A DNA stretch of 64,000 bases from Reichenbachiella agariperforans. GTDB taxonomy: Bacteria > Bacteroidota > Bacteroidia > Cytophagales > Cyclobacteriaceae. The position numbers were made by a program, and so were the translations under genes. The stretch lies in the NCBI RefSeq assembly GCF_900142205.1, contig NZ_FRAA01000001.1, forward strand, positions 1,262,796 to 1,326,795, given 5' to 3'. Positions 19,520 to 44,303 of this stretch are shown here, piece by piece. A model generated the notes under the pieces. It made no database searches. It was given only the letters and a program-made list of their open reading frames with translations, and had not been told where the DNA came from. How positions within the stretch are numbered: position 1 is the stretch's first letter; every line of letters starts with the position of its first letter.

Positions 19520-19668
19520 AGTGATTATCAAATTTAGTGTTATTAACATCTCGTCCGCTGTAGCGAACGCGAAGGAGGATTAATGAGTAATGAACGAATA
19601 TACTAAATACTCCTTAGCAGCAAAAGTGACAAAGCACTCTCTACCTCACTCGACCCCCCAGGCAATGG

Positions 19669-19941
19669 TACTAATGAAAAACTATTGAGAAATGAAGTAT
19701 TTATATTGAACTACATATAAATACATATCAAATAGAGATATAGATTATTCCAATATGAATAGATACAAACAAACTACATATATTTCCTATTACAGAATGA
19801 ATTCTTATTATTAAAAAATGAAGTTTTCATATTGAAAAATAGATGCTTATATATAAAAAATGAATGTTTAATATTAAACACACTACTATTACTATTGAAA
19901 AAAAATAGACCCTCACTAAAAAAAATGACAGGTTTTTCATA
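19669..19941. repeat. Degenerate 21-bp tandem array (about 11-13 units)
   Basis: Units run in strict 21-base register. The clearest eleven fill 19690-19920, with weaker units at 19669-19689 and 19921-19941. Unit ends are conserved (start near AAATGAAT, end near ATATTGAA or ATATTAAA), while the central ~6 bases vary. Three examples are 19816-19836, 19837-19857 and 19858-19878. The array lies in the divergent space between the S9 peptidase and a small HTH gene and ends 31-51 bases before the HTH start. It is not a CRISPR: there is no identical repeat and no 30-base spacer. On the minus strand several units read as seven-residue FFNxKxS repeats. Confidence 0.8.
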
Positions 19942-19971
19942 CCTTTTGGTGAGAATCAAACCAACCTTAGG

Positions 19972-20310
19972 ATGTTAAAACTGAACATTGATTATCTCAC
20001 ACGTCTACGCGGCATCAGTAAAAATTTTACCTACCTCACCAAACTAGGACTGAGCTACAACATATCCCAGCGACTGTCCACTGGCAATGTCAAAAGTATC
20101 AACCTCGGTCATCTGGAAAAAATCTGCCTTGATCTACGGTGTACGCCCAACGACCTACTAGAATGGCACGCTGACCAATCGGTCAGCTCCGATCACCCGC
20201 TGCACACACTCGTCCGTGACCCTCGACTATTAGAAAGTCTAGAAAAAATCCAAAACCTCCCACTCGACAAATTCAAACGTCTGAATGACCTCATAGATAA
20301 CTTGGAATAG
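19972..20310 (+). CDS. Small Cro/C1-type helix-turn-helix protein (HTH_26-like)
   Basis: 112 residues. The N-terminal ~65 residues form a Xre-type DNA-binding domain (NIDYLTRLRGISKNFTYLTK, then the recognition helix region YNISQRLSTGNVKSI and the closing LGHLEKICLDLRCTPNDLLEW). The LRCTPNDLLEW ending is typical of the HTH_26 clade in Bacteroidota. The C-terminal tail (LESLEKIQNLPLDKFKRLND) is helical and may dimerise. It is preceded by a near-consensus TACCTTTTG at 19940-19948 and by the 21-bp array. Binding to the array is a hypothesis drawn from position only. Confidence 0.85.
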   Translation: MLKLNIDYLTRLRGISKNFTYLTKLGLSYNISQRLSTGNVKSINLGHLEKICLDLRCTPNDLLEWHADQSVSSDHPLHTLVRDPRLLESLEKIQNLPLDKFKRLNDLIDNLE

Positions 20311-20366
20311 AGGCTAAGGTAAGAATTCTCGATTGTACCGAGGGTGGTGACACTAAGCTAGACTAG

Positions 20367-37590: not shown

Positions 37591-37673
37591 CTTTCATTAC
37601 AGCAACATTACTAGTCACTTCATCATCGTGAACTATCCAATTAATCCATGTTTCTGAAGAGGAAGTTATGATT

Positions 37674-38007
37674 ACTTCGTTATTCAAAATTCATTGTTCG
37701 AGATTCACTATTATTCTTGGCCAAAAACATTTCCATACATCCTATACGTTTGAGTGAATGGAATACCAAATACGCAATATTGAATTTTATTTCTCCAGAT
37801 TTGGGATCACTCCGTATTTCTGGGCGAGAGGTAGTAGATCACTTCGTTATTCAAGATTCATTGTTCGAGATTCACTATTATTCTTGGCCAAAAACATTTC
37901 CATACATCCTATACGTTTGAGTGAATGGAATACCAAATACGCAATATTGAATTTTATTTCTCCAGATTTGGGATCACTCCGTATTTCTGGGCGAGAGGTA
38001 GTAGATC
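37674..38007. repeat. 167-bp direct tandem duplication
   Basis: The segment 37674-37840 is repeated at 37841-38007 with about one difference, and a third partial copy continues to roughly 38035. Each unit contains the GTATTTCTG end of the MITE-like element (37814-37822 and 37981-37989). The near identity points to a recent duplication. Frames that open across it are artefacts: 167 is not a multiple of three. Confidence 0.9.
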
Positions 38008-38138
38008 ACTTCGTTATTCAAGATTCATTGTTCGAAATTCGTTATTGTTTTTTTATAAAAAAATCACCTATTATGAGTCTTTGAGGTAATATTTAAATGA
38101 TTGGAATAATGAATATCGAATATTATCCCCAGAAATAC
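37981..38138 (-). mobile_element. MITE-like repeat element, copy B
   Basis: 158 bases bounded by GTATTTCTG (37981-37989) and CAGAAATAC (38130-38138). It is the reverse-oriented relative of copy A at 12269-12446, with long matching blocks covering the poly-T/ATAAAA centre and the GTCTTTGAGGTAATATTTAA segment. Its left part is embedded in the 167-bp tandem duplication. It ends ten bases before the stop of the next minus-strand gene. Confidence 0.65.
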
Positions 38139-43743: not shown

Positions 43744-44303
43744 CTAAAACCTGCGTAACTCATGCATAAGCCCAATCAATCCTCCACAGCAAATGGCTGG
43801 TTGATCTGCTATTAATATATCTTTCTCCAGATATTTAGAAAAATTCGAATCCCTTACTCCTGCTGTTGATCGCATTGCAAATGCTCTACCATGACATCCT
43901 CGTCACAGACGAGGGAGATTGAGGATATTGTCTGTTTTTGTCTTTCCACAAACCCGTGCGGGTTTGCCTCCAAGTCTGCGCGGATTTGATCTCAAGTCTG
44001 TGCAGATTCGGAGTAAAGTCTGCACGGGTTTCACGTAAAGTCTACGCGGGTTTGTATATAACCCGTACGAGTTTCAAACAAAGCCAGTACGGGTTTGGTG
44101 TAAAGTCTGCCTTGGTCTGAAGCAAAGTATCAGTAGGTTTTTGGTAAAGCATCAGTAGGTTTGAGACAAAGTCTGCGCAGGCTTTTGTCCCAGTACTTCT
44201 ACTGCTCGATCGCAATTGCACTAGTGTACTAGGATAGACATCTATAGAGACGATGGGCATTTCAAATCCCCAATCAATGCGAGCCCTGCACGGTCAGCGG
44301 CGA
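43744..44303. other. 560-base convergent intergenic region
   Basis: It lies between the ends of a plus-strand and a minus-strand gene, so no promoter is required here. It holds a small hairpin CCTCGTC/GACGAGG (43898-43914) and the 22-bp tandem array at 43950-44191. No coding frame is accepted. Confidence 0.65.
43950..44191. repeat. 22-bp tandem array, 11 units with dyad symmetry
   Basis: Eleven consecutive 22-base units without a break in register. The core is close to AAGTCTGCGCGGGTTT, followed by about six variable bases. Units begin at 43950, 43972, 43994, 44016, 44038, 44060, 44082, 44104, 44126, 44148 and 44170. The core is itself an imperfect palindrome; the first unit AAACCCG-TG-CGGGTTT is the cleanest. 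Later units drift (CAGTAGGTTT cores at 44126-44169). It is unlike CRISPR in unit length and conservation. Being 22 bases long, it cannot encode a fixed short peptide repeat. Confidence 0.88.

Follow-up and report, generated by a model that had tools for sequence, protein, structure and literature searches.

A phased 21-bp repeat array upstream of a small HTH_26 gene: a candidate self-contained autoregulatory module

Iterons are helically spaced direct repeats that lie beside the gene of the plasmid Rep protein that binds them, and in ParR/parC centromeres a small ribbon-helix-helix protein occupies tandem repeats in front of its own gene. In Streptomyces, the MerR-like protein BldC forms asymmetric head-to-tail multimers on direct repeats of varying number (PMC5859096). 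Here we analyze an array of 21-base-pair (bp) direct repeats that precedes a gene for a small helix-turn-helix (HTH) protein of the HTH_26 family, in a 64-kb stretch of the Reichenbachiella agariperforans genome (the window, meaning the whole stretch analyzed).

As in iterons, phased direct repeats stand next to the gene of a DNA-binding protein; unlike in an iteron/Rep pair, no Rep domain was found, the protein has no plasmid match (E 1e-5) and the location is of chromosomal type. The locus differs from ParR/parC (type II/III partition) in having no recurrent nucleoside triphosphatase (NTPase) partner and an HTH instead of a ribbon-helix-helix protein, and from toxin-antitoxin pairs in having no conserved partner gene in an operon. 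With BldC it shares a small DNA-binding protein (whose binding we infer here) and asymmetric direct repeats of variable number. BldC has a winged MerR-like HTH with a 9-bp site per subunit at several promoters, whereas here a Cro/C1-type HTH_26 protein goes with about ten 21-bp units before its own gene. No solved structure fell below E 0.001 by fold (Foldseek). The nearest was the HTH of SaPI2 Stl (PDB 8q86, 8rc5, 8qe9; 67 aligned columns, 1.8 A), a weak match (Foldseek E 0.003-0.03 for the best six chains; profile E 0.00037) to a protein whose C-terminal part is different and longer, and no phage-satellite context was seen at our locus. The HTH-array module is real and strongly conserved, and no description of one was found in the open-licence PMC literature, as judged by title and start of abstract.

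The array and its association with an HTH_26 subfamily

Autocorrelation over positions 19,669-19,971 was 0.479, 0.479 and 0.475 at lags of 21, 42 and 63 bp. The column score at period 21 was 0.430, compared with at most 0.393 for the best of periods 15-34 in dinucleotide shuffles, and none of 5000 such shuffles was as periodic as the array at any of these periods. The 21-base tandem array in strict register, as given in the original prediction, is thus real. Its extent had been put at 11-13 units over more than 230 bases; leave-one-out scoring instead gives ten units of exactly 21 bp each, 210 bp in all, and negative scores for the extra ones. Four of the ten are weak (1.2-2.8 bits), candidate units from 19,900 onward score about -12 or lower, and other delineations gave nine units (an earlier pass) or 4.3 copies (Tandem Repeats Finder). 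The picture of conserved unit ends around a variable 6-base centre holds only roughly: with units phased from 19,690, columns 3, 7, 16, 18, 20 and 21 are the best conserved and columns 4, 9, 10 and 14 the worst. The small HTH gene, whose ATG lies 72 bp beyond the array, and the divergent S9 peptidase gene are both as first described. When the whole window was scanned in 300-bp segments, the sole stronger signal was a 22-bp repeat near 43,800-44,300. The window had no Rfam match at gathering scores.

To determine how often such arrays accompany the gene, 111 loci (105 distinct) were gathered by searching 118, 390 and 395 genomes as well as genome contigs (the best 80 of 131 there). The subfamily tested comprises HTH_26 proteins of about 115 amino acids with a C-terminal tail. 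An array was scored as a 21- or 42-bp period with z above 6 within 700 bp upstream, at the 104 loci with at least 200 bp of upstream sequence; the threshold was chosen after a first look at the data, and since z is the value of the best window, controls were needed. Arrays were found at 88 of these 104 distinct loci, near-identical members such as L133, L134, L135 and L140 included. They were also found at all 29 further distinct loci, drawn from 44 places listed in 295 class genomes after double domains were merged, earlier loci and one near-identical gene dropped and the partial match L193 excluded; several of the 29 come from one genus. The array-bearing loci lie in records labelled Bacteroidota, Ignavibacteria and Acidobacteria. 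Presence of the family is patchy, with hits in at least 20 of 390 family genomes (E 1e-12) and at least 22 of 295 class genomes (E 1e-10).

The controls were almost free of such arrays. Downstream stretches had none at 21/42 bp in 103 cases (three had other periods above z 6), and upstreams of neighbouring genes had one in 190 (six at any period). No array preceded any of 23 short HTH_26 genes. At one Aquimarina locus, L126, the test detects no array at the HTH gene, and there is one in front of a Crp-family gene some 2.2-2.4 kb upstream; the general Crp/Fnr link that this suggested was rejected, as none of 30 Crp homologues (30 of 40 listed places) had an array. Looking closer at the first ten upstream regions, which include both copies from the window's own genome and leave out a second G010 copy at a contig edge, 21 was among the two best autocorrelation periods in all ten. 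Nine of them beat all 300 shuffles, the exception being G010 (reached by 7 of 300), and by column score the G005b and G010 upstreams were not above shuffles. The paralogue in the window genome, only 34% identical, has a 21-bp array of its own. The expectation that arrays gather near HTH_26 genes is therefore strongly borne out for the tail-bearing subfamily, to which 21-bp arrays are specifically tied, and fails for HTH_26 at large.

Array anatomy, unit-protein covariation and relocation

Of the 88 arrays, 79 could be delineated with six or more units, and a larger set holds 101 such arrays. In the latter the median is 10 units (interquartile range 9-11, range 6-18), ending a median of 66 bp from the ATG. 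The period is constant while unit sequences differ widely between loci. The units are asymmetric: their reverse-complement self-similarity is 0.382, compared with 0.376 for a column-permuted null, and only three of the 101 (L112, L146 and L178) exceed the 95% palindrome null. No 10- or 11-bp sub-repeat was found on average, which together with self-similarity at the null rules out palindromic or 10.5-bp dimer half-sites overall. In the 79 arrays, unit similarity climbs with HTH-region identity, from 0.28 to 0.85 on the same strand and only from 0.28 to 0.38 on the opposite one, showing that related loci keep the array in one orientation with respect to the gene. Conserved columns also change more slowly than variable ones (297 of 1546 versus 559 of 1674 substituted). 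This difference holds in each of the 15 pairs compared, nine of which are gapless; some loci enter more than one pair, so the pairs are not independent.

The HTH gene itself is under purifying selection (ratio of nonsynonymous to synonymous substitution rates 0-0.24 in 12 of 12 pairs). The window protein matches HTH_26 with 38.7 bits, above the Pfam gathering cut-off of 22, and this family, matched by all 80 aligned members (E <=0.01), is the only one common to them. None of five proteins matched NCBIfam and none of four matched PADLOC; PHROGs gave weak regulator matches for two of four. Pfam and the AlphaFold2 monomer model (112 amino acids; mean predicted local distance difference test (pLDDT) score 94.3) both indicate a Cro/C1-type fold, and helix 29-37 is taken as the recognition helix because that fold places it there. 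A role of the C-terminal tail in oligomerisation would be our guess. Fused double-HTH proteins at four loci (L233, L234, L235 and L236; 217-226 amino acids, model pLDDT 76) carry two HTH_26-like domains; the 42-bp unit expected for them was not seen.

We then compared unit sequence with protein sequence; related sequences are not independent data points. In 232 pairs with at least 45% identity, unit similarity followed 12-residue windows starting at residues 13-37 with a partial r of 0.36-0.50, windows within residues 76-93 with 0.03-0.05 and the remaining windows with 0.14-0.40. A partial Mantel test for the HTH region was reached by none of 500 permutations, with a small effect (0.13), and residues 28-41 gave none of 1000 with a partial r of 0.06. 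These correlations support the view that among closer relatives the unit sequence goes with the HTH segment of the protein. Unrelated arrays have an average unit similarity of about 0.28-0.30, and paralogues in the same genome often carry dissimilar units, with scores of 0.39 (window pair), 0.23 (G001), 0.34 (G557) and 0.17-0.31 (six cam-2 pairs). Most of the more closely related paralogues resemble each other (L179/L195 0.69, L178/L198 0.61, L144/L241 0.63); the L241/L152 pair reaches just 0.21 with proteins 67% identical.

Comparison with sister genomes shows that in three of them the module is absent from the equivalent site. The S9 peptidase gene is found in six of seven other genomes of the genus. 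In G001, G003 and G005 its neighbour is a PhzF-like gene, the two matches are separated by about 45-105 bp, and neither array nor HTH gene is present; in the window, 817 bp separate the two genes. The PhzF side gave no match in G002, G004 and G006. G001 and G005 carry modules of their own at other places, and G003 has no HTH homologue at E 0.001. Gain and loss are indistinguishable from this one site. Elsewhere, the match among the four near-identical loci named above begins with the array, runs beyond the gene and does not extend to the outer genes, while other related pairs keep common flanks (e.g. L084/L086, L099/L102, L129/L130, L138/L143). No neighbour recurs widely: the largest homologous group covers 5 of 100 loci (five more were skipped, and neighbours were not annotated singly). 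With no recurrent neighbour, and with the S9/PhzF pair lacking the module in three genomes, the promoter space that the array was said to share with the S9 peptidase looks incidental.

Proposed mechanism and rival explanations

We propose, with a probability of roughly 0.6, that array and HTH gene form an autoregulatory module, self-contained and relocatable, in which the protein would bind its own array cooperatively, head to tail. Each protomer, or each asymmetric dimer, would read one asymmetric 21-bp unit. Since all units point the same way and recur at intervals of two helical turns, protomers could align on a single face of the helix, each behind the next, with cooperativity over about 210 bp. 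The resulting nucleoprotein stretch would end near the HTH gene's own promoter and would control it, most likely by steep repression. Consistent with a promoter at this place, the Bacteroidetes -7 box, TAnnTTTG, was seen 18 times against 9 expected between -120 and -8 of 79 loci, 15 of the 18 falling between -62 and -21; sigma-70-type promoters showed no excess before HTH genes. Direct cooperative binding of the array by the HTH protein is likely and autoregulation probable. Each module would have its own unit-protein code, so that cross-talk would not be expected between dissimilar copies within a genome, and array and gene would move and evolve as a pair.

A broader claim, which we advance tentatively and with less than even confidence, is that these loci represent an undescribed class of portable module in at least three phyla (by record labels). 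In each, about ten phased units would be read only by their own HTH protein as a one-sided filament; the code would vary by copy, several orthogonal modules could coexist in a genome, and in some genomes extra arrays would lie before other genes. If the module reading is right, a sizeable unnamed protein family brings its own binding sites along, and about a hundred natural protein-operator pairs could be read from sequence alone, making a recognition code of Cro/C1-type helices directly readable and giving engineers a large set of repressor-array pairs as candidates for orthogonal use. It would also raise the question of why one lone regulator should have ten phased operators.

Several results weigh against the autoregulatory module as proposed. 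Sixteen of the 104 loci fail the array test, nine of them without a detected array; these nine include L126, whose array lies three genes away, and L082, where a half-conserved 21-bp pattern can be seen by eye. Five others have a best period of 21/42 with z of 3.3-5.96. The double-HTH fusions keep 21-bp arrays, so the number of protomers per unit is not fixed by the data. Covariation is weak over all 5050 pairs (0.01-0.10 for 12-residue windows, top 37-48), the rest of the protein also keeps a partial correlation, of 0.11 versus 0.13 for the HTH, and recognition-helix per-column rank tests were non-significant (0.34; 0.43; 0.052 for residues 28-41), the column signal of that helix having weakened on a larger data set. 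The array of the L054/L055 pair is an exception in having evolved more rapidly than synonymous sites. On C8, a 1.595-Mb contig with 32% of the window genome, there are 18 period-22 peaks of another repeat kind (four of the 18 were read); short-period arrays are thus not rare in this genome, and the specific point is the tie of 21-bp arrays to the HTH family. Finally, orphan arrays without an adjacent HTH gene occur in G557 and in the Aquimarina, so that autoregulation may not be the whole function.

These orphan arrays are what one would expect if the HTH protein governed a small set of other genes in trans, with copies of its array as operators and the copy in front of the HTH gene as feedback arm. 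We consider this explanation unlikely overall, though some genomes may have such a small regulon. At up to three mismatches, the L076 unit occurs in G557 seven times in its own array, seven times in a second, once in a third and three times scattered (control patterns gave 4 hits). The two extra arrays, near C1:115-282 and C1:498,498-498,644, each lie upstream of other small genes, and the L126 array stands before the Crp-family gene rather than at the HTH gene. One of the G557 orphans begins at a contig end, its upstream side unseen, and no neighbour is widely recurrent. C8 holds no second array of either local unit; its seven 21-bp peaks are two modules, two intergenic 42-bp tracts and three places inside predicted open reading frames. 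Less probable still is a selfish or mobile element that would use regulation only for its own upkeep. The empty sites between the same flanks in three sister genomes would fit it, as would the several related modules with different flanks, the different places of modules within the genus, and dispersed repeats near several modules. Against this, no transposase or integrase was noticed at the module and no defined ends or target duplication were recognised, gain cannot be told from loss, and pairs such as L084/L086 keep their flanks.

A structural or segregation site, at which protein and array would build a nucleoprotein complex that organises the chromosome, comparable to ParR/parC or iteron handcuffing and with regulation secondary, is improbable. 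The helical phasing of about ten units, their strict spacing, the variation in specificity and the lack of a recurrent neighbour would all suit it, but no recurrent NTPase or replication neighbour was seen, the presence in genomes is patchy, and the fixed orientation and placement before the gene suit cis regulation better. A coding role of the array, for a heptad-repeat peptide (21 = 3 x 7), or a role as structured RNA is close to refuted. A 61-residue minus-strand open reading frame does overlap the window array, and the palindromic L146 array folds strongly; however, a frame is open through the whole array in just 22 of 79 cases (mean 0.38 frames versus 0.45 column-permuted), folding z is about 0 on average in the 27 of 79 arrays tried, with L146 the exception, and L120 units are 20 bp long. 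The cis-acting autoregulatory module remains our preferred reading.

Features of the window and other repeats

Coordinates of the features are collected in Table 1.

Table 1. Array, gene and surrounding features, in window positions
Feature	Positions	Strand	Basis or remark
Array of ten 21-bp direct repeats	19690..19899	+	Period of 21 and positive leave-one-out scores; consensus AAAt.aAT..TTA.TATTaAA
Degenerate in-register flanking unit, left uncounted	19669..19689	+	Leave-one-out score -3.6
Spacer from array to ATG, possible site of the HTH promoter	19900..19971	+	TACCTTTT at 19,940-19,947, one mismatch to TAnnTTTG
HTH_26 protein gene, 112 amino acids, C-terminal three-helix tail	19972..20310	+	PF13443, E 1.2e-9; AlphaFold2
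Codons of predicted recognition helix (residues 29-37)	20056..20082	+	AlphaFold2 model and Cro/C1 fold
C-terminal tail (residues 76-112), three helices	20197..20307	+	Model
Stretch with array and HTH gene missing in sister genomes, about 740 bp	19610..20353	.	Edges approximate; left edge weak (local alignment, 11-bp core)

A phage or plasmid origin was rejected, as the window protein had no match to either at E 1e-5; viral contigs gave 9 weak hits, none with an array z above 6. In G557, the two orphan arrays align with each other over about 280 bp downstream, and about 105 bp of that stretch is covered by 40 of 41 matches (40 of 118 candidates scored). The same genome has small genes (L295-L300, L302) each followed by the 105-bp element (28 copies aligned), in cassette-like rows. 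By eye the element has no attC core, and a 318-residue neighbour of the G557 modules is unlike an integron integrase (no family search was run). Three loci from two genomes (L076, L077 and L144) share a divergent upstream gene of 318-321 amino acids.

Two loci that fail the array test, in records labelled Acidobacteria/Pyrinomonadaceae, have units of 20 bp (L120) and 41 bp (L106). On C8, the intergenic 42-bp (2 x 21) tracts at 460,840-461,010 and 1,200,497-1,200,600 look similar to the arrays and lack an adjacent HTH gene. The paralogous HTH gene is followed directly by an interspersed repeat about 100 bp long (L047:3727-3828), which matches dozens of places in the genome of the window and is possibly related, by eye, to window positions 37,670-38,040. 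The 22-bp-period array of the window is intergenic (about 43,900-44,200), and its unit, near AAACCTGCGCAGACTTTG, differs from those of the HTH arrays.
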